From positions 1 through 64,000 of the forward strand of contig JANTGM010000017.1 of the NCBI GenBank assembly GCA_024762925.1: DNA of 64,000 nt. The letters are read 5' to 3'. The notes under the pieces were generated by a model that saw only the letters and a list, made by a program, of their open reading frames with translations, made no database searches and was not told the DNA's origin. A program made the translations under genes and the position numbers. Positions 33,818 to 44,002 of the stretch are shown piece after piece. This stretch comes from Kofleriaceae bacterium. Lineage in GTDB: Bacteria > Myxococcota_A > Polyangia > Haliangiales > Haliangiaceae. The stretch's first letter is position 1. Every line of letters begins with the position of its first letter.

Positions 33818-34456
33818 TCACACTTTCGGCGCGAGTATCGGTGCGCCGGTCGCTGCCTCAAGCTCTGCCTGCGTCACCTTGGGGCCAAGCTCAACGAGCC
33901 GAAATCCGTCTTGGGCGACATCCAGAACCGCGAGGTCGGTGATGACTCTAGAAACAACGCCCTTTGCTGTGAGCGGGAAGGTGCACTCTGAGACGAGCTT
34001 TGGCTCGCCCTTCTTTGATTGATGTGTGGTGAGAGCAATCACCTGTCGACAGCCACTCGAGAGGTCCATCGCCCCACCAATCCCCATCGTCTTGCCTCCG
34101 GGAATCGACCAGTTTGCTAGATCGCCAGTCATTGAGACCTGCATAGCCCCCAAGAACGCCACGTCGATGTGACCACCGCGAATCATCGAAAAGCTCAGCG
34201 CTGAGTCGAAGCACGAGCCACCGGGAAGTATCGTCACGGTCTGTTTGCCAGCATTGATAATCTGCGGGTCTTCCTCGCCCTCGTAGGGGAATGGACCAGT
34301 CCCAAGCAGACCATTTTCGCTGTGCAACCAAACTTCCTGGTCATCACGAAGATAACTGGCGACGAGTGTTGGCAAGCCAATGCCAAGGTTCACGACACAG
34401 CCGCTAGGAATTTCTCTTGCCGCCCGCTCGGCGATTTGTTCTCTGGTGAATGCCAT
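33818..34456 (-). CDS. scoB: CoA-transferase family I, subunit B
   Basis: The 212-residue subunit B of a family I CoA transferase has the catalytic Glu in HSENGLLGTGPFPYEGEED, preceded by NLGIGLPTLVASY, and GAMQVSMTGDLANWSIPGG and VITDLAVLDVAQDGF. With subunit A it moves CoA between carboxylates, typically succinyl-CoA and a 3-oxoacid. It follows subunit A by 2 bases and ends the five-gene operon with the fusion protein. In Bacillus the yodR/yodS subunits act beside a class III aminotransferase in the beta-lysine cluster, as here. The exact acid is not readable from sequence. Confidence 0.93.
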   Translation of the reverse strand: MAFTREQIAERAAREIPSGCVVNLGIGLPTLVASYLRDDQEVWLHSENGLLGTGPFPYEGEEDPQIINAGKQTVTILPGGSCFDSALSFSMIRGGHIDVAFLGAMQVSMTGDLANWSIPGGKTMGIGGAMDLSSGCRQVIALTTHQSKKGEPKLVSECTFPLTAKGVVSRVITDLAVLDVAQDGFRLVELGPKVTQAELEAATGAPILAPKV

Positions 34457-34458
34457 CT

Positions 34459-35175
34459 CTAGTCTCGCTTTCGGCTCGTCTTGTACTCAAACGGGTCTTC
34501 GTGCTCGGCAACCACAGCCATGCGGTGAACAAAGATGCCAGGCAGATGCACGTCATCCGGGTCGATGCCGCCAAGCGGCACCAGCTCTTCTACCTCAGCA
34601 ATGGCAGTTTCTGCCGCGGTCGCCATGATGGGCATGTAGTTCTGTGCGGTCCGCCAAAAACGCAGATTCCCAAAGGAGTCTGCGCGTCGCGCCCGAAGAA
34701 GTGCGAAGTCGACCGGCAGCGCTTCTTCTAAGAGATATTCTTTGCCGTGAAACTCTTTCACTTCCTTGCCCTCTGCCACCACGGTGCCAACGCCCGTCGG
34801 CGTATAAAAGCCCGCGATACCGGCGCCGGCGGCTCGCAAGCGCTCTACAAGCGTTCCTTGTGGCACCAGGGTTACTGCGACCTCACCGCTCTTCATCATG
34901 CGCTGCAGATCTTCGTTGTTCCCAACATAGCTGCATGTCACTCGACCGACGATACCCGCCTTAAGCCATTGCGCGAGCCCTTTGCCCATATTGCCCGCAT
35001 TGTTGCTAACGATGTGCAAGTTCTTTGCTCCGCACTCGACAACGCCCCGAATCAGAGCCTCAGGGTTGCCACAGAGTCCAAAGCCCCCGACTGCAATGGT
35101 GGCGCCATCCGCCACGCCCTCAAGCGCCGCTGCGACCGAGTCCTTCACCTTGTTTGCATGTCTTCCAACGTTCAT
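34459..35175 (-). CDS. scoA: CoA-transferase family I, subunit A
   Basis: The 238-residue subunit A has the signature GGFGLCGNPEALI (glycine-rich CoA loop), HIVSNNAGNMGKGLAQ, VTCSYVGNNEDLQ, ELVPQGTLVERLRA-type strand and the substrate region FYTPTGVGT. It pairs with subunit B, 2 bases downstream. It starts 3 bases after the aminotransferase gene, so translation is closely linked. The reaction is CoA transfer to an organic acid formed in the same pathway. Confidence 0.93.
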   Translation of the reverse strand: MNVGRHANKVKDSVAAALEGVADGATIAVGGFGLCGNPEALIRGVVECGAKNLHIVSNNAGNMGKGLAQWLKAGIVGRVTCSYVGNNEDLQRMMKSGEVAVTLVPQGTLVERLRAAGAGIAGFYTPTGVGTVVAEGKEVKEFHGKEYLLEEALPVDFALLRARRADSFGNLRFWRTAQNYMPIMATAAETAIAEVEELVPLGGIDPDDVHLPGIFVHRMAVVAEHEDPFEYKTSRKRD

Positions 35176-35178
35176 CGC

Positions 35179-36390
35179 CTATCCTTTGTTTGACGCCGTG
35201 GCAATTGCGCTGCCAAAGCGCTCCAGCCCGTCGGCGAGCTGCTCTTCGGGCATGTTTAGCGCTGGTGCCAAAATTGCCGTTCCTCTGCGCTCGGAGATGT
35301 GAAGCAGAACGCGCACCTCCTTCAGGGCTGCAAGCAAGCGCTCCCAGAAGCCCGAGTCTCCTGCGATATCGACTGCAGCCAAGAGCCCTCGCCCGCGGAC
35401 ACCAGATGCCACCTCGGGATACGCCTGGCAAATCTTGGAGAGCTCTTCTTGAAGCGTGGGTTCCAAACATGCGGCACGCGAATAGAGGCCTTCCCGCTCG
35501 TAGGTGTCCAACGTAGCGAGTGCGGCAGCACAGCCGATCGGATGCGCGTAGTTTGTGAGACCCGCGTAGAGAACTTCGGTCTCAAAGTGTTTGGCCACTC
35601 GCTCGTGAACGAGTACTGCGCCCAAAGGAGCAAAGCCTCCGGTCAGTGCTTTTGCCACTGTGATCATGTCGGGCACAACGCCCTCGTGTTCAAAACCAAA
35701 GCAGCGACCTGTGCGGCCAAAGCCCGTCAGCACCTCATCCGCAACCAGCAACGTCCCGTGTGCATCACATGCTGCGCGCATCCTTGGCCAGTAGTCCTTG
35801 CGGGGAATGTGCACCCCATTTGCTCCGGGAATCGGCTCCATGAACACCGCAGCGATGCTTTCTGGCCCCTCCAACTCCATCGTGGCCTCCAAGATGGCAG
35901 GGTCTTCTCCGAGCACATGAATCACGCCGCCAAGCGCGGGCTCAAGTGGGGGGCGCCGATAGTCGCCCGTGAGCGCAAGTGCCCCGAGTGTGGCGCCGTG
36001 ATAGGAGCGGTAGCGGCTGAGAAACTTGAGGCGTCCTGTCACAAGGCGCGCAATCTTCATCGCGTTCTCATTTGCCTCTGCGCCGCCAAGCGTGAAGAAG
36101 ACCTTGCTAAAGCCCTCGGGTGCCAGTGAGAGCAGTGTGGCTGCAAGCTCGCGCTTGGCTTGGAAGTCCGCGTTTGGTGGCGCTAGGCACAGCTTCCCTG
36201 CCTGCGCCTGGATTGCCTTCACAACCTCCGGGTGGTTTTGTCCAAGGCTTGCTTGGTAGCTAAGGCTGCCCATGTCGAGCCAACGACTACCGTCTCCCAT
36301 GATGAGTTCGGCACCCTCACCGCCAACGAGCTCAGCACCTTGCGTGCCCGCCTGTGAGCTCCAAGTGTAGAAGTAGTCACGAGGCGTCAA
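35179..36390 (-). CDS. Class III aminotransferase, omega-amino-acid type
   Basis: From TTG 36390 the frame gives 403 residues; the TTG overlaps the stop of the C45 gene as TTGA. A longer open frame exists upstream but only in the shadow of that gene. Class III features: YFYTWSSQAGTQGAEL at the start, TLGGAEANENAMKIAR, SRYRSYHGAT, DEVLTGFGRTGRCFGFEHE, and the PLP lysine in TVAKALTGGFAPLGAV. It moves an amino group between an omega- or beta-amino acid and a 2-oxoacid. The neighbours (CoA transferase, GNAT fusion) resemble the YodT context of Bacillus, where the substrate would be acetyl-beta-lysine. That substrate is inference. Confidence 0.9.
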   Translation of the reverse strand: MTPRDYFYTWSSQAGTQGAELVGGEGAELIMGDGSRWLDMGSLSYQASLGQNHPEVVKAIQAQAGKLCLAPPNADFQAKRELAATLLSLAPEGFSKVFFTLGGAEANENAMKIARLVTGRLKFLSRYRSYHGATLGALALTGDYRRPPLEPALGGVIHVLGEDPAILEATMELEGPESIAAVFMEPIPGANGVHIPRKDYWPRMRAACDAHGTLLVADEVLTGFGRTGRCFGFEHEGVVPDMITVAKALTGGFAPLGAVLVHERVAKHFETEVLYAGLTNYAHPIGCAAALATLDTYEREGLYSRAACLEPTLQEELSKICQAYPEVASGVRGRGLLAAVDIAGDSGFWERLLAALKEVRVLLHISERRGTAILAPALNMPEEQLADGLERFGSAIATASNKG

Positions 36391-37475
36391 AATGAGAACT
36401 CTTCTGGTGCAACGTTGTGGGTAAAGCCGGCAACAACAAAGAGCCTTCGACGGGTTGGATCCACAGCAATACCGGCGCAGGTTGCTGCAGCGTGAGGAGC
36501 CTCTGGCGAGGCCATATTCGTGCAAATGCTTCGCGGATAGCCATCGTGGGAGCCTAGGCGTTGCCAAGCGTCTTCCAGCGATGCAATTGGCTTGTGGTCC
36601 AAGCTCTGGCGCATGGCATCTTGGCGATCTTGGGTGGTGCTAAACTCTGGGACGCGATTGCACGCAGCAATCTCCGCATCGAGGCAGTGATTGGAGTGCA
36701 CGAAGTCGTCTTTCTCTCCTGAAAAGATGACTTTGCGCCGCTGACCCGAAGTCTCAACACTCACAACCGACTTGGGGGTACAGACAAGGTAGTGATGGCC
36801 CGAACCCACCTTGCAGGCCAAGAGCATGTCGCGTGCAGCATCGGTCTCCGACACACGCAAGGCCTTGCGCACGATCGCTGACCACACAACACCAGGCACG
36901 GCATCGTTGCTCGTGAGGTTGTTGATGCCAATACTGAGCCCACTTGCGTTGAGCCCAGCCATTCCAAGGCAGCCGGTAAGAGAAAGCAAGTACGCATCCC
37001 CACCGGAGGCATCTGCGACGCGCATCAGCATCACAAAGGGCATTGCGCTGGCGTGCATGTCCCAGGTTTGGGCAAAGATTGGCCCCGAACTGGTCTTGGC
37101 CCAGAGCATGGTGCAGCCGCCATCGTAGTCTGCATCGCCGGGAAGGGCCTCTGTCGTGCCAGCATCGCCCCAAGCATCTGGCGAAAGATCACGAATATCG
37201 GTGTATTGATTGAGGACCACGAGCCCGGCAGGGCTGCATCCTGAGCCCTCAGCCAGTCCTAAGAGTTCTTCGTAGAGTTCCGAATCGAACTCGCGAAGAA
37301 TGGGCAGATGCTCCTCTGCGATGGCTAAGAGCCCTTGCTCGGTAAACCCAGAAATTTTACTCGCCAAGTAGATTCGCAGCTTGACCAGGCTTGAGATTTC
37401 TCCCGCAAACGTCTGGCCGTGCAAGAGTCCTCTCTCGCGACCCGTTGCACATGCTCGCAAGTCCAAATAGCGCAC
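36387..37475 (-). CDS. C45-family autoproteolytic acyltransferase/hydrolase
   Basis: From GTG 37475 the frame gives 362 residues of an Ntn-hydrolase related to isopenicillin N acyltransferase (peptidase family C45). The self-cleaving, then catalytic, Cys lies in DYDGGCTMLWAK, followed by QTWDMHASAMPFVML, LTGCLGMAGLNASGLSIGINNL and HSNHCLD. Members hydrolyse or transfer acyl groups on amines. The GTG overlaps the last base of the upstream fusion gene stop (TAGTG). In this operon it could remove the acyl protecting group put on by the GNAT domain of the fusion, in place of the M20 deacetylase (YodQ) of the Bacillus cluster; this is inference. Confidence 0.85.
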   Translation of the reverse strand: MRYLDLRACATGRERGLLHGQTFAGEISSLVKLRIYLASKISGFTEQGLLAIAEEHLPILREFDSELYEELLGLAEGSGCSPAGLVVLNQYTDIRDLSPDAWGDAGTTEALPGDADYDGGCTMLWAKTSSGPIFAQTWDMHASAMPFVMLMRVADASGGDAYLLSLTGCLGMAGLNASGLSIGINNLTSNDAVPGVVWSAIVRKALRVSETDAARDMLLACKVGSGHHYLVCTPKSVVSVETSGQRRKVIFSGEKDDFVHSNHCLDAEIAACNRVPEFSTTQDRQDAMRQSLDHKPIASLEDAWQRLGSHDGYPRSICTNMASPEAPHAAATCAGIAVDPTRRRLFVVAGFTHNVAPEEFSF

Positions 37476-40400
37476 TAGAGCACCTTTCCGAGGGCCGTTG
37501 CGAGTTGCTTGGCATCCGCCACTGCCGTGTCCAAGCAAGGAATGACTGCGAGATGTCCTCCGGGGAATCGCCGCAAATCAACCCCTTCGCGACCGAGCGC
37601 TTCGTGCAACTCGTCGGCTCGGGCACCAGCTTTGATCACTCGATACAGGCCGCGACCATGAACTGGCATGCCAGCATTCTGGGCCAGAGCAACGGCTTCA
37701 TCGAGACCGGCAATCGCGGGACCGAGATCGGTGGTGCGCGCTGCCCTCAGTTGATGATGCTCCCGCACCAGACTGAGTTCATCACCGTCCCACGTCGAAA
37801 CCATCGCCAGAGGCTTGCCCACCCGGAAGCGCGCCGTGGTGTGAATGTAGCCTGTGTGTGCCCCGCCCCACCAAGCGAGAATGTCGGGCACCTCGGCCCA
37901 TGCACTGCAAGCGAAGCTGCCTTGCCCCGATCGGTAGCAACCCGATGCCGTTTCAAATGCCAGCAGTGGAACGTTCAACTCGCGGCAGAGCTTGTGCAAC
38001 GCCGACCACCGCTCCGCATCAAAGCAGCGACCGGTGCGTTCTTGAACAGGCTCCACGAAGAGCCCGAGGATGTTCTCACCGCCGCCCGCCTCGCCAACGA
38101 TCTCGCGAAGGATAGCCTCCATCGCTGGAAGTCCAACGTCCTCGGGGTGCGGAAGGAGCGGCCAATCAAAGTGTTTTGGCCCCTGAACGTGAACACCGGG
38201 ATCCGAGATCGAACGCGCAGCCGCCGTGGTGTGCCCAACATAGCCACCAACCATGCCGATTGCGACCTGCGCGTCCTTGCGGTGGGTACGAACAAGTCTT
38301 AGGCATTTATCCACAAGCTCGTCACGGCACGATGTGAGATACATATGAGGCAGCTTGGGTGCCATCGCGCTCGCCCACTCAATGGCGCGAACAATGGCTG
38401 GCGTCGCGTAATTCATCACCGTCAGTTTGTTGACCGCGGGCCCATAGAGAAGCCCTGAATTCTCAGCCTCTACCAGCGACGCTGGCGGCATGGAAAACGG
38501 CGTTGAGATGCCAACCGCCATACTCCTTGCGGGCGTACTCTCAGCGGGTCGAACAGGCGACAACGGGCCCAAAGGCATTCGATAGTAAATTGCCTGGCCT
38601 TCAGGATCCTCATACTGCCCGGTGAGAACGCAGACAAGGTGCGCGCCAAACGCCCGATTCAGGTGTGCCATCGCTGCTGTATGACCAACTCGATTGCGAC
38701 CCGTAACAAAGCGATAGCGCGGACTACCATCGGCCCGTTTGCGGATCGTCGCCTCTCCAAGTTGTGCTTCTTTGAGCTTTCGCCCAATTCCGAAGCCTTG
38801 GAATTCTTCGCAGACCGTTACCGACACAGAGTACAGACTGTTGGCCTGCCCCAACATCGGATCCCTGTCGGGCCCCTCTTCGCTCTCGTGAACTGCCTCA
38901 AGCGGCTGACCTATGGCAAAGCCCACAAAGCTCCACTCTTGCCCCTCCTTAGCCTCGGCCAGGGTAATCACACTATCTGGGTCTTTGAGTGCCGCCTGAA
39001 CGTGCTCTGGAGCAGCTCGTCTCGCTGGCTCATACACGCGCAACTCGATATCCAAGATCGCCTCCAGATGGTCCATTGCTTCTTTCGAGGAAACGCTTCG
39101 GATGCGAACCTCTGGGGGCTGGCGCCGCTTCTTATGGAGTGCCGGGAGGTCTTCCCAGACTGGCGGCTTCGCACCTGGATGGGCATCGAGCCACGCGAGC
39201 GATCGTCGAACTGTGTCAAAGAGCAGCTCGATATCGCGCGCGAGGTAGCTATCGGACAATCGGTACCGCACCGTCTTGCTACCCGCCCCAAAGACCACGG
39301 CGCCTCGCCAGAACCGTTGCCCTAGGTAGGCCATCAAGTGGTCCGTGGTCGGGAGGTCAAAGGCGAATGCAAAGCCCTTTGCTCGCGGCGACCCAACGAG
39401 GTGCGGAAAGCCCTGCACAATGGTATTGAGGTGACCGCGGACGATTCTCTCCACCCGCTCTGCGGCGTGCTGTGTCGCAACCATCTCCGCATGCATGCGC
39501 CCACGAATTAGCGAAGCGGGTTGCACCGAGGTGACTTCGGGATCATCCCAGACACTCATGCAGACTCCCAGCTGCGCGCGCTTGGCGAAGACGACGGCAT
39601 CAGGAAAATCTGGCTTGCCGCGAAAGTTCACGAATTGGAACTTTGAATGCCAAGCAAACTCGCCACCGAGCCCGAACCCCGTCTGCACCTCATCTAGGAT
39701 GAGCGGCACGTTGTGATGTCGCGTGAGCAGCCTCAGGGCTCGAAAGAAACGCTGTGTGGCATAACGATCTCCGCCCTCGCTCTGCATCGGTTCAACGATG
39801 CATGCGAAAAACTCTGAGGACAGGAGGGCCTCGTGCACAGCGGAGAGACTGGCCACTTCCCTGGCGAGCAGCTCATCCTCCTGGGCATCTCCGAAGCGTG
39901 TCTTTAGTTCATCCAAGTCGCCCATGCCCACGTATGCGTAGAAGCCTGAAGGCGCATTGGGCTCGCCGTCACCGGGCGTTGTCCATACGGGGAATGGGGC
40001 GAAGTTGCCCGTGTACCCTGCGATTTCATACGGGCCTCGCTTCGCCGGATTGTAGGTGAGCGAAAGCGGCAGCAGGGTGCGCCCGTGGAAGCTTCCTTCA
40101 AACGCAAGCACTTTGGTGGATCCCGTATTTTCCGAGTGCAGTCTCGCCAATGCCAGAGCTTTGTCGTTGGCTTCCGCGCCACTGTTGGCGTAGGTGACGT
40201 GTGGCAAACCTGGCACCATCTGGCGAAGCACGGTGGCAAAATCGACAGCCGAATCTTGCACGTGCACAGCTGGGTCTTTGGTGCTCACGAGCGAATCTCC
40301 AAACTCGCCCTCTGTGTACCCACGAACTACGCGATCCTCTGCAAAGCCACCACACAGGGTTGCGGTTTGGCTCATACCATCAAGCACCGACAGCGGATCG

Positions 40401-42109
40401 TCATCGACCGAGACCAACCACGGGCCAGCAGACCGCATATGGTCAAACACCGGCGGCTTCTTTTCGCGAACCACGCGCTCGGCCGCATAGAGTCGAGATA
40501 GGAGTTCTTCTGATCTCGGCAGCTTGCCTCCGCGCGGCAAATTCATCGCCATGGGACGAGGCTGGGCGAGCAGAGTCCTTGACGCTTCCCGCGCTTCTTC
40601 CTCAGCATGCTGCGTCGCCAATCGGTCCAGTTCTGGCGGTGGCATATAGTTTAGAAGCTTGTCATGAACCACAATTCGCCCGATGACATTCTCCTGGACA
40701 GCGACCGAGGCAACGACATTGCGCGGCGCATGCGCACCTGCAGGCCGATAGTTGCCGCTCTTACCAAGGCCACCAAACGGCAGCCGAGGGCTGGCCTGAT
40801 TGGTCGATCGGTTGCGATTGAGAATGCCCGAATTGGTCTCGCGGTAAAACCGTTCGAAGCGCTCGTTTGAGAATGTGAAGATACTGTTGGCGAGCCCAAA
40901 CTCACTGGCACGCAGTGTGGCAATGGCTTCGTCGTCACTAGAAAAACTCTCAACACCAACGTCAGGACCGAAGAGCTCGACATCGGTGTACCCAGGCACT
41001 TCGTGCAAGCCCTCTGGAAGTAGATGCACAGACGCTCGAGCAAAGTTGCCACCTGCGTTTCGCCCCGGCTCCACCAGAGCCACAGCGCCACCAGCTTGGG
41101 CCGCTGCCGTTGCTACCTCAAGAGCTTCCAAGCCCGCCTTCGTTGTCAGGGGGCCAGCAAAGGAATCTGGCGATTCCGGATCTCCGAATTGCAGCGAGCG
41201 AACCATGGGCACAAGCGCCTCAAGAAGCTCTTCCCGGCGACTCTCGTGCACTAGGACTCGATCGGTGCAAGTGCACCGTTGCCCTGTCGTGAGGTAGCCG
41301 CCAACCACGATCTCATGCGCTGCCTGCCGTAGGTCGGCGTCCTCAGCAACAACCACAGTGTTCTTGCCGCCCATCTCCAGCGCGACCAAGAGTTCGGGTC
41401 GTTCGAGGGTGGCCTCCAGAATGCGTCGACCAACTCGGTACGAGCCAGTGAAGCACAGACCGCGGACGTGCGAGTGCGCAGCGAGGGCAGCCCCACTCTC
41501 ACCGCCACCCTGCACCATGTTGAAAACGCCCGCTGGCAAATCCGAATCTGCAACGGCCTGGGCATAGACCTGCGCGCACAGCGGAGTCACCTCGGAGCCC
41601 TTCACCACGACCGCGTTCCCCATGAGAAGTGCGGGGATTGTGTGGGCGTGGCACAGGTGGAGCGGGTAGTTGAACGGTCCGATAACTCCGACGACCCCCA
41701 AGGGGTGATAGCGCATCTGCTCCCCCGGGAAGCCAGCGACCTGCCCTTCCACCAGGTCGGACTCGACAACGGCTTTGACCATGTTGAATCGGCCTATGAG
41801 CGCGCCCACTTCCCCATCGGCCTCACTACGCAACTTGCCAGTCTCAAGCACAATGGCATCAGCCAGCTCACTTCGCCTTGCGGCGATGGCCTCACGAAGA
41901 GAGATCAGGACCTCAAACCGCTGTCCTCGATCCAACGCACACCATGCCTTTGAGGCCTGGTGAGCGGCATTGGCCGCATCGGCTACGTGCTCCACAGAGC
42001 AGGCGGTCTCGAATACAACCTCCTCGCTCTTGGCCGGGTTGGTCGAGGTGAGTGTCGTCCCCTTGGGAGCAACAAAACTGCCATCTATAAAATCACCAAG
42101 TGCTTGCAT
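37475..42109 (-). CDS. Four-domain fusion: ALDH - class III aminotransferase - GNAT - degenerate aminotransferase
   Basis: This 1544-residue protein is four enzymes in one chain. Domain 1 (about 1-480) is an aldehyde dehydrogenase closest to AstD: Glu245 in ALEMGGKN, Cys279 in TTGQRCTCTDR and LPFGGLGKSGNYRPAG. Domain 2 (about 540-980) is a class III aminotransferase with SGAEANDKAL, FEGSFHGRT, Asp806 in LILDEVQTGFG and PLP lysine Lys843 in VVFAKRAQLG, the motif form of lysine 6-aminotransferase. Domain 3 (about 1000-1190) is a GNAT with motif A EEFQGFGIGR. Domain 4 (about 1215-1544) is a second class III fold: VEPVQE is kept, but Asp became Glu in LLAFETASG, and the PLP lysine is missing around DILAWWGGAHTG. 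It heads the minus-strand operon and has no signal peptide. Likely an acyl-protected omega-amino-acid oxidation machine. Confidence 0.93.
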   Translation of the reverse strand: MQALGDFIDGSFVAPKGTTLTSTNPAKSEEVVFETACSVEHVADAANAAHQASKAWCALDRGQRFEVLISLREAIAARRSELADAIVLETGKLRSEADGEVGALIGRFNMVKAVVESDLVEGQVAGFPGEQMRYHPLGVVGVIGPFNYPLHLCHAHTIPALLMGNAVVVKGSEVTPLCAQVYAQAVADSDLPAGVFNMVQGGGESGAALAAHSHVRGLCFTGSYRVGRRILEATLERPELLVALEMGGKNTVVVAEDADLRQAAHEIVVGGYLTTGQRCTCTDRVLVHESRREELLEALVPMVRSLQFGDPESPDSFAGPLTTKAGLEALEVATAAAQAGGAVALVEPGRNAGGNFARASVHLLPEGLHEVPGYTDVELFGPDVGVESFSSDDEAIATLRASEFGLANSIFTFSNERFERFYRETNSGILNRNRSTNQASPRLPFGGLGKSGNYRPAGAHAPRNVVASVAVQENVIGRIVVHDKLLNYMPPPELDRLATQHAEEEAREASRTLLAQPRPMAMNLPRGGKLPRSEELLSRLYAAERVVREKKPPVFDHMRSAGPWLVSVDDDPLSVLDGMSQTATLCGGFAEDRVVRGYTEGEFGDSLVSTKDPAVHVQDSAVDFATVLRQMVPGLPHVTYANSGAEANDKALALARLHSENTGSTKVLAFEGSFHGRTLLPLSLTYNPAKRGPYEIAGYTGNFAPFPVWTTPGDGEPNAPSGFYAYVGMGDLDELKTRFGDAQEDELLAREVASLSAVHEALLSSEFFACIVEPMQSEGGDRYATQRFFRALRLLTRHHNVPLILDEVQTGFGLGGEFAWHSKFQFVNFRGKPDFPDAVVFAKRAQLGVCMSVWDDPEVTSVQPASLIRGRMHAEMVATQHAAERVERIVRGHLNTIVQGFPHLVGSPRAKGFAFAFDLPTTDHLMAYLGQRFWRGAVVFGAGSKTVRYRLSDSYLARDIELLFDTVRRSLAWLDAHPGAKPPVWEDLPALHKKRRQPPEVRIRSVSSKEAMDHLEAILDIELRVYEPARRAAPEHVQAALKDPDSVITLAEAKEGQEWSFVGFAIGQPLEAVHESEEGPDRDPMLGQANSLYSVSVTVCEEFQGFGIGRKLKEAQLGEATIRKRADGSPRYRFVTGRNRVGHTAAMAHLNRAFGAHLVCVLTGQYEDPEGQAIYYRMPLGPLSPVRPAESTPARSMAVGISTPFSMPPASLVEAENSGLLYGPAVNKLTVMNYATPAIVRAIEWASAMAPKLPHMYLTSCRDELVDKCLRLVRTHRKDAQVAIGMVGGYVGHTTAAARSISDPGVHVQGPKHFDWPLLPHPEDVGLPAMEAILREIVGEAGGGENILGLFVEPVQERTGRCFDAERWSALHKLCRELNVPLLAFETASGCYRSGQGSFACSAWAEVPDILAWWGGAHTGYIHTTARFRVGKPLAMVSTWDGDELSLVREHHQLRAARTTDLGPAIAGLDEAVALAQNAGMPVHGRGLYRVIKAGARADELHEALGREGVDLRRFPGGHLAVIPCLDTAVADAKQLATALGKVL

Positions 42110-42202: not shown

Positions 42203-44002
42203 TTGGCTTCCCTACTCTTTCAGGCCGGCCCCAATGCTGGGCGCCGCTACAAGCTCGGCGATGGCGACTACATTATTGGTCGGCGGTCGGACTGCCAGAT
42301 CTTTGTGCCCGATATGCGCGTCTCTCGACAGCATGCTCGAGTTGTGCGGGATGGCAATGGCTGGATCATCGAAGACCTTGGTTCCAATAACGGCACCTTC
42401 GTAAACGGCAAGCAGGTGCAGTCGGGGGCCATCTCTCACAGAGACGAAATCACCATCGCGAACAACAAGATTCGCGTTGACATTCCGGAGTCCACCAAGG
42501 GGCTGCCCTCCTACGATGCGAATGTCACAATCGTCGATCTGCGCAATCCAAAGGTCTTTGTCTCAAATGAGGATAGTTCTGATAGCAGCTTCCTCAATGC
42601 CAGCTTGGCGGGGGTTCAGGACAGCCAGCGTGAGCTTCGGCTCATCGAGCGCAAACTCGACGCGCTAACTTCCGTGCTTCAGAGTGCGGCGACAACCACC
42701 GATCCGCTGGTCCTCCTCGACAAGATCGTCGAAGCACTTCTCGAAGTCTTTCCCGATGCGGCCTCGGTGGGTGTGCTGGTGCAAGACGAGTCGGGCGAAC
42801 TCAAAGTGCAAACAAAGCGGCACCGCAAAAAAAGCGCGGGCGCCGACATGCGCGTTCCCGGCACCATTATCCGCCATGTGGTCCAAGACCGACGAGGCAT
42901 TCTCCTGCAGGAAGATGACGTCGAGCCACAGACGCACACCCACGATGTGGCGATGCCGGTTGGCCTCGAACCCAGCGGTTCGCGAATGGGCGCGCCACTG
43001 CAGTCACACGGTGAGAACTACGGGGCCATCTATGTCGAGGGCCAAGGGCAAAAATTCAAACAAGAGGATGTGGATCTTCTAACGAGCATTGCCGCACAGG
43101 CCGCGCTCGTCATGCACTCCGCTCGTCAACAACAACGCGCTGCGGTCCAAGAACGGCTCGAACGCGACTTGCGCGTCGCACGGCAAATCCAACGCAGCCT
43201 TCTACCGGCTGCCGAACCCGAAGTCTTGGGCATGGAGTTTGGTGTCCACTACGAGCCGGCCTATCAGATTGGTGGCGACTTCTACGATTTCACATGGCAC
43301 GACAAAGACCACCTTGGAATGGTGATTGGAGATGTCTCGGGCAAGGCGATTAGCGCAGCACTGTACATGGCGAGTCTCACAAGCCAGCTGCGATCCCGAG
43401 CTGCGATTGCAAAGACCCCAGGGAAACTGCTTTCCAAGGTAAACGAGTCGATGCTGCAAATGGGCGACGACGGCATGTTCGCCACCCTCGCCTACCTCAT
43501 CTACGATCTCGAAACTCGCACTCTGGTCTTCACCAACGCGGGGCATATGACGCCTCTGCTCCGGCGAGATGGGCGGGTGTATCCAATTCAGGCTGAGCAA
43601 GCACACTGCACACCGATTGGCATTATGGAAGGCATGGAGTTTGGTGAAGCGCGAATCCAGCTTCACTCTGGTGACCTCATCCTCCTCACCACCGATGGCG
43701 TTCATGAAGCGCGGGATCCATCTGGCAACGAATACGGCATCAAGCGACTGAGCCGCAGGGTTCGCTCTGCCCGCGGAAATGCGAGCGAAGTGGTAAAAGC
43801 GATCCTCCAAGACCTCGATAGCTTCGTTGGCAATGGGCCGCAAACCGACGACATCACGATTGTCGCCATGGGCATTGGAAGACGTCGGGCCAGGCGTCGA
43901 ACTGAGACGATGCCAGGTCTTCCCGCCCTGGAGCCCGACATCACCACGGGGCGCCCAATCACCGAGACTGGTGAGTCCCCAGCCGTGGACGAAGGCGAAT
44001 GA
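42203..44002 (+). CDS. FHA-GAF-SpoIIE (RsbU-like) protein phosphatase
   Basis: From TTG 42203 the frame gives 599 residues. Residues 1-95 form an FHA domain (YIIGRRSDCQI, VSRQHARVV, DLGSNNGTFVNG). Residues about 150-325 form a GAF domain (DKIVEALLEVFPDAASVGVLVQDE, LTSIAAQAALVM). Residues 345-565 form a SpoIIE-type PP2C phosphatase with GGDFYDF, GDVSGKAISAALYM, TDGVHEARD and NGPQTDDITIV, all metal ligands present. It would bind a pThr partner, sense a small molecule and dephosphorylate a Ser, as RsbU does on anti-sigma antagonists. TATATT at 42187-42192 could be its -10 box. Divergent from the fusion operon. Confidence 0.9.
   Translation: MASLLFQAGPNAGRRYKLGDGDYIIGRRSDCQIFVPDMRVSRQHARVVRDGNGWIIEDLGSNNGTFVNGKQVQSGAISHRDEITIANNKIRVDIPESTKGLPSYDANVTIVDLRNPKVFVSNEDSSDSSFLNASLAGVQDSQRELRLIERKLDALTSVLQSAATTTDPLVLLDKIVEALLEVFPDAASVGVLVQDESGELKVQTKRHRKKSAGADMRVPGTIIRHVVQDRRGILLQEDDVEPQTHTHDVAMPVGLEPSGSRMGAPLQSHGENYGAIYVEGQGQKFKQEDVDLLTSIAAQAALVMHSARQQQRAAVQERLERDLRVARQIQRSLLPAAEPEVLGMEFGVHYEPAYQIGGDFYDFTWHDKDHLGMVIGDVSGKAISAALYMASLTSQLRSRAAIAKTPGKLLSKVNESMLQMGDDGMFATLAYLIYDLETRTLVFTNAGHMTPLLRRDGRVYPIQAEQAHCTPIGIMEGMEFGEARIQLHSGDLILLTTDGVHEARDPSGNEYGIKRLSRRVRSARGNASEVVKAILQDLDSFVGNGPQTDDITIVAMGIGRRRARRRTETMPGLPALEPDITTGRPITETGESPAVDEGE

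Follow-up and report, generated by a model that had tools for sequence, protein, structure and literature searches.

The 64,000-nucleotide stretch of DNA analyzed here (the window), positions 1 to 64,000 of contig JANTGM010000017.1 from a Kofleriaceae bacterium (assembly GCA_024762925.1), carries a gene encoding a single chain of 1544 residues in which an aldehyde dehydrogenase (ALDH), a class III aminotransferase (AT), a GNAT acyltransferase, and a degenerate aminotransferase (pseudo-AT) follow one another. The two aminotransferase parts retain complementary portions of the class III active site, a pattern suggesting a pseudo-heterodimer fused into one chain and sharing a single composite site. 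The same strand carries, downstream, genes for a candidate deacetylase, a second AT, and both subunits of a 3-oxoacid coenzyme A (CoA)-transferase; together with the chain, these would make up a diamino acid catabolic operon, tentatively of the beta-lysine type. The architecture of the chain, its conservation, the complementarity of its residues, the operon, and the co-occurrence of the genes are read directly from sequence. All four folds are known, and the surprise lies in how the two aminotransferase halves complement each other; a literature search found no description of the ALDH-AT-GNAT-pseudo-AT architecture, and searches of curated families found none that covers the whole chain. The gene and its domains are as follows.

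37475 to 42109, minus strand: fusion gene, ALDH - AT - GNAT - pseudo-AT, 1544 amino acids in one open frame
40640 to 42109, minus strand: ALDH domain, residues 1-490, of an AstD-like subfamily, with catalytic C279 (GQRC) and E245 (LEMGGKN)
39140 to 40639, minus strand: active class III AT domain, residues 491-990, with R677 (FHGR), E778 (QSEGGD), D806 (DEVQTG), and K843 (FAKRAQ) and without the Ser-Thr-Trp loop
38525 to 39112, minus strand: GNAT acyltransferase domain, residues ~1000-1195, with the acyl-CoA loop EFQGFGIG and conserved YEPARR and TGRNRVG
37478 to 38464, minus strand: pseudo-AT, residues 1216-1544, with G1415 in place of the Lys and F1385 in place of the Asp, retaining S1438-T1439-W1440-D-G1442

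The open reading frame begins with ATG and runs for 1544 codons with no internal stop. Against Pfam, the whole chain matches Aldedh at residues 13-462 (E value of 1e-102) and Aminotran_3 in two stretches. The AT domain scores 124.9 bits against PF00202 and has both the Schiff-base Lys and the pyridine Asp, as well as the FHGR motif and the second substrate arginine; the C-terminal ~330 residues, searched separately, match the same Aminotran_3 profile (E value of 1e-9, 38 bits) but lack the Lys and the Asp. The segment between them reaches GNAT at a subthreshold E value of 0.018 when searched separately; judged by its EFQGFGIG motif at residue 1102, read against the superfamily's acyl-CoA loop pattern Q/R-x-x-G-x-G/A, and by an alignment of 23 relatives in which the loop glycines are invariant, it is probably a divergent GNAT. 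The ALDH motifs GQRC and LE[ML]GGKN are kept in every aligned relative that bears the domain. An earlier note on this DNA, made from the letters alone, had proposed four enzyme folds in one chain, the last of them a pseudo-aminotransferase, and both points hold: the frame is intact, Pfam identifies the ALDH and AT parts, motif and alignment point to the GNAT, and F1385 and G1415 replace the Asp and Lys of the last part.

Among solved structures, L-lysine 6-aminotransferase (LAT) of Mycobacterium tuberculosis (Rv3290c; PDB 2CIN; E value of 7e-22) comes closest to the AT; it also appears among those related to the pseudo-AT (E value of 2e-6). In class III dimers, the opposite subunit lends a Ser-Thr-Trp loop to its partner's active site; in LAT, we take Lys300, Asp271, and Glu243 to lie in the site of their own subunit and Thr330 to reach into the site of the other. 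Both aminotransferase parts of 59 nonredundant chains were aligned to LAT, the numbering of which is used here. The AT has the switch residue Glu243, Asp271, Val273, Gln274, Lys300, and Arg422 in all 59 chains, whereas its positions 328, 329, and 331 are deleted in 58. The pseudo-AT shows the reverse, with Lys300 and Asp271 in none of the 59 and Ser329-Thr330-Trp331-x-Gly333 in every one. Position 328 of the pseudo-AT, adjoining the Ser-Thr-Trp motif, is Val or Ile throughout (59/59) and Asn in LAT; a hydrophobic residue there presumably recalls 4-aminobutyrate aminotransferase (GABA-AT). The ratio of nonsynonymous to synonymous substitution rates (dN/dS) against a genome of the same genus (G002) is ~0.09 for the pseudo-AT and 0.06 to 0.08 for the AT and ALDH; with dS near saturation these values are approximate, and they indicate that the measurable parts of the fusion, the pseudo-AT included, are under purifying selection.

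The simplest reading of this pattern is a duplicated and fused class III dimer that would retain a single composite active site. The AT would work as an intramolecular or cross-chain pseudo-heterodimer, with Lys, Asp, Glu, and Arg coming from the active half and the Ser-Thr-Trp phosphate clamp from the dead one, giving one active site per AT/pseudo-AT pair. LAT and GABA-AT share the Lys, Asp, Glu, and Arg set with the AT; they are, however, homodimers with two identical sites, whereas here each half keeps one side of the site, on one chain and with a GNAT between them. A likeness is found in serine palmitoyltransferase LCB1/LCB2 (SPTLC1/SPTLC2), a pyridoxal phosphate fold-type I pair that is left with a single active site, one partner having no Lys. 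That enzyme, mentioned as a heterodimer elsewhere (PMC10196870), belongs to the alpha-oxoamine synthase family and consists of separate subunits with no GNAT between them. The analogous pattern, a Lys-less partner carrying the residues it could supply, is present in 59/59 chains; a structure prediction of residues 490-1544, with an alignment depth of 2, reached a predicted local distance difference test (pLDDT) score of 31 and was discarded. If the composite site is real, a class III aminotransferase pseudo-heterodimer would here exist naturally as one chain, an example of a homodimeric enzyme dividing its labor after duplication.

The two halves have also decayed together. Four genomes of family f16 carry decayed chains: in G290 (L139), the Lys of the AT has become Gly and the Ser-Thr-Trp of the pseudo-AT Ala-Gly-Trp (AGW), and in G267 (L156), G429 (L157), and G248 (L158), the AT Lys, or most of the AT domain, and the pseudo-AT Ser-Thr-Trp are both lost. 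All four loci have kept the GNAT motifs and the neighboring CoA-transferase genes, and three of the four genomes have a recognizable second AT. Because G290 and G248, the two copies that can be placed, group together on the core tree, the joint decay probably represents one event in one clade, which reduces its weight for the composite site. A competing explanation, independent of the pathway and in our estimate unlikely, treats the pseudo-AT as no more than a remnant of structural or regulatory use, with the AT pairing with its own copy in another chain as an ordinary homodimer. Pseudoenzyme domains often regulate, and 29 of the 59 AT copies have a Thr or Ser near the lost loop position, as this explanation would have it; the deletion of the positions beside that Thr in nearly all ATs and their integrity in all pseudo-ATs speak against it, as does the shared decay seen in f16.

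The fusion is nearly full length, with an open frame and 51 to 62% identity, in 17 genomes of the same family, and at least a fragment of the gene occurs in every same-family genome searched. The 17 copies exclude an assembly join of separate genes, the artefact that the earlier note had named as a possible refutation. Across the phylum, a profile search (E value of <1e-50) found the pseudo-AT in 49 of 379 sampled genomes, about 1 in 8; the profile separates cleanly, ordinary class III aminotransferases appearing from ~1e-20. The constant core of the domain maps is AT-GNAT-pseudo-AT. The ALDH is fused to it in the family of the source organism and in f25, f62, f63, f68, f55, f60, and f67, has its own gene immediately upstream in f44, f54, and f59, and is not encoded at the f10 and f16 loci; the genomes are drafts, so the absence of a gene from a locus, here and below, may reflect a contig end. 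On the well-supported branches of a maximum-likelihood tree of the core, the fused state must change at least five times. The f55 fusions nest within a group in which the ALDH gene is otherwise mostly a neighbor, and the ALDH was therefore probably fused more than once, with transfer and loss also counting as changes of state. These fused, neighboring, and absent states offer a natural series on the benefit of fusion for aldehyde handling. About 100 extra residues lie between the AT and the GNAT in f55 (L132, L134, and L135) and in L126, L129, and L130.

The genes downstream of the fusion, on the same strand, are as follows.

36387 to 37538, minus strand: C45-family N-terminal nucleophile (Ntn) acyltransferase/hydrolase, a candidate deacetylase (NF040521, 161.6 bits against a cutoff of 85), with the likely nucleophile in GG|CTML
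35179 to 36567, minus strand: second class III AT, intact and with its Lys, by family and locus comparison
34459 to 35175, minus strand: 3-oxoacid CoA-transferase subunit A (CtfA; TIGR02429, over the cutoff), a pathway-specific paralogue
33818 to 34456, minus strand: 3-oxoacid CoA-transferase subunit B (CtfB; TIGR02428, over the cutoff), with the likely catalytic Glu in SENGLLG

The true start of the C45 gene is probably downstream of the listed TTG, and that of the second AT is probably near 36411. The order fusion-C45-AT-CtfA-CtfB is conserved across many families, and the C45 gene stands in the same place in most related loci; a search for further conserved neighbors returned mostly antisense frames of genes already known. 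The earlier note had placed the chain in amino acid breakdown, and a possible deacylating enzyme among its neighbors agrees with this.

Operon-type CoA-transferase A and the chain tend to occur together. In the source genome, the operon subunit A is distinct from the general ScoA, with 410.7 versus 335.6 bits against the operon-type profile; the general paralogue occurs also in genomes without the chain. Operon-type subunit A was found in 41 of the 49 genomes with the pseudo-AT versus 11 of the 330 without it (Fisher P value of 1e-36, uncorrected for relatedness). Of the 11 genomes in the latter group, G010 contains a chain fragment, G248, G267, and G429 have the decayed chains, and G162 (L155:2401-9221) has the operon's type of second AT and CoA-transferase A ~1 kb from a frame-split gene for AblB, the beta-lysine acetyltransferase family, with an AstE/AspA-type deacylase ~2 kb further; a 494-residue protein without a Pfam match is also encoded there. 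In 24 further genomes, the GNAT type of the chain was found in four decayed chains and in G070, and in none as a stand-alone gene. The G070 gene (L031:8733-10790, minus strand) encodes a 685-residue ALDH-GNAT fusion without an aminotransferase and adjoins a glycine-betaine/choline (osmoprotectant)-type ATP-binding cassette (ABC) transporter, in a genome without an operon-type CoA-transferase. Another arrangement is seen in G045 (L163:3282-8899), where a pyrroline-5-carboxylate (P5C)-dehydrogenase-like ALDH, a PRK05769-type GABA-AT-like AT, the second AT, and CoA-transferase A/B form an operon that has neither GNAT nor C45 and whose ALDH and first AT are unrelated to those of the chain. By its gene content, this would be an independent assembly of the same functional set; it supports the set and neither reaction order in particular.

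Placed against curated families, the single enzymes fall near known ones without joining them. The ALDH has three AstD structures as its best solved relatives, as the earlier note's description of it as AstD-like would suggest, and AstD (TIGR03240) is among its two nearest curated families; its score is 327.9 bits, below the cutoff of 579. The closest curated family of the AT is L-lysine 6-aminotransferase (TIGR03251; 110.9 bits, cutoff of 520.8), and the eukaryote-type 4-aminobutyrate aminotransferase (TIGR00699) gave 91.8 bits (cutoff of 567), neither cutoff being reached. The AT resembles these enzymes rather than AstC. The GNAT matched no curated NCBI family. An identity of the domains with the AstA, AstC, and AstD enzymes themselves is thus not supported. 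The operon resembles the arginine succinyltransferase pathway (AstA/AstC/AstD/AstE) in its kinds of enzymes and in an ALDH nearest AstD, but it reaches no curated Ast cutoff, has its activities in a single chain, and adds a CoA-transferase and a second AT.

A closer parallel is the catabolism of beta-lysine, which proceeds through acetyl-beta-lysine, 3-oxo-6-acetamidohexanoate, its CoA ester, thiolysis, 4-acetamidobutyrate, 4-aminobutyrate, and succinic semialdehyde to succinate. In Bacillus subtilis, yodP to yodS presumably lie between kamA and yodT. The locus tags of the latter two, BSU19690 and BSU19740, are near each other (PMC6522883). Like kamA-yodPQRST, the operon has a GNAT, a second class III AT, 3-oxoacid CoA-transferase A and B, and a deacylase-type enzyme together, the correspondence being one of enzyme kind and not of orthology; it differs in that the GNAT is not AblB/YodP by profile and is fused to the AT, pseudo-AT, and ALDH, that its candidate for the deacylase belongs to the Ntn C45 enzymes, and that KamA is unlinked. 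From this gene content, we infer both a substrate and a reaction order. The GNAT would acetylate the 6-amine of beta-lysine, and the separate second AT would take off the 3-amine to give the 3-oxo acid (3-oxo-6-acetamidohexanoate). The CoA-transferase would form the CoA thioester, and a thiolase encoded elsewhere would cleave it to 4-acetamidobutyrate, from which the C45 enzyme would strip the acetyl group. The AT of the chain would convert the resulting 4-aminobutyrate to succinic semialdehyde, and its ALDH would oxidize this to succinate, possibly with channeling between AT and ALDH. The GNAT would thus act first and the AT and ALDH last.

This order, with a composite-site AT and the chain as a trifunctional enzyme of the operon, is favored, at somewhat less than an even chance, because the f16 clade retains the GNAT, the CoA-transferase, and in most cases the second AT after the death of the fused AT, as would fit if the GNAT step immediately preceded that of the second AT, and because G162 has AblB beside the second AT and CoA-transferase A. 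A lysine 2,3-aminomutase (KamA)-like gene in the source genome also agrees with it. Several observations weigh against it. The ALDH is closer to AstD than to succinic semialdehyde dehydrogenase, and the C45 gene or the second AT is absent from several related loci. An identity of the GNAT with AblB was rejected: AblB/YodP (TIGR03827, cutoff of 205 bits) has no match in the source genome at an E value of ≤0.001, profile-profile comparison gave an E value of 0.0038 and a probability of 8.7%, and G064 and G072 each carry AblB alongside the chain. No lysine 2,3-aminomutase gene was found at the locus; the KamA-like gene of the source genome, at 477 bits against a cutoff of 525, lies on another contig beside queG and unrelated genes. 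KamA occurs about as often in genomes that lack the chain, and the chain-bearing G064 has a weak match; unlinked and present in almost the whole class, KamA was rejected as proof of the substrate.

The order of the earlier note, in which GNAT, AT, and ALDH act in succession, would apply to beta-lysine if the GNAT acylated the 3-amine, the fused AT removed the 6-amine, and the ALDH oxidized the N-acyl semialdehyde, with C45 then giving 3-aminoadipate, the second AT 3-oxoadipate, and the CoA-transferase 3-oxoadipyl-CoA. Consecutive action would best explain the fusion of the three domains, gene order would equal reaction order, and the AstD-like ALDH, the ALDH-GNAT fusion without an AT in G070, the ALDH, two ATs, and CoA-transferase without a GNAT in G045, and a CoA-transferase of the PcaIJ/ScoAB family, suited to 3-oxoadipate, all agree with it. 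Yet in f16 the fused AT is dead and the GNAT and CoA-transferase remain, which would leave the route broken unless another AT substitutes, and the f10 and f16 loci have no ALDH. We know of no such acyl-protected beta-lysine pathway. The order is thus possible but less favored, and we hold it to be unlikely; also unlikely is the fuller proposal that a split-site fused class III dimer, with a GNAT inserted and an ALDH repeatedly recruited to its front, runs across Myxococcota an acyl-protected route for beta-lysine that is so far undescribed, ending for instance in 3-oxoadipyl-CoA. GNAT, class III AT, and ALDH co-occur also in ectoine and polyamine metabolism, and an acetylation pathway for diamines, polyamines, or ectoine-type osmolytes with no link to lysine would suit the osmoprotectant-type transporter beside the G070 gene; a 3-oxoacid CoA-transferase has no obvious role there, and the FHGR motif and second substrate arginine kept by the AT are expected for carboxylate substrates, making this quite improbable. 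A small chance is given to an acetyl-protected alpha-lysine or 5-aminovalerate route through N6-acetyl-lysine, 5-acetamidovalerate, 5-aminovalerate, and glutarate semialdehyde to glutarate and the CoA-transferase: the set of activities and an AT nearest lysine 6-aminotransferase would fit, but a CoA-transferase of the 3-oxoacid family is ill suited to glutarate, and no gene for the decarboxylating step was recognized in the loci. The operon is a candidate for lysine or beta-lysine breakdown in a phylum of protein-feeding and predatory bacteria whose amino acid catabolism is little known.

The source genome contains two KamA-family radical S-adenosylmethionine genes, the lysine 2,3-aminomutase-like one beside queG (L036:7230-8474, 414 residues) and a longer, divergent one (L037:313-1893, 526 residues); genes of either kind are common across the class. 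Within the window, a divergently oriented gene at 42203 to 44002 on the plus strand, encoding an FHA-GAF-SpoIIE phosphatase, starts 93 bases from the fusion gene and is a possible regulatory neighbor.

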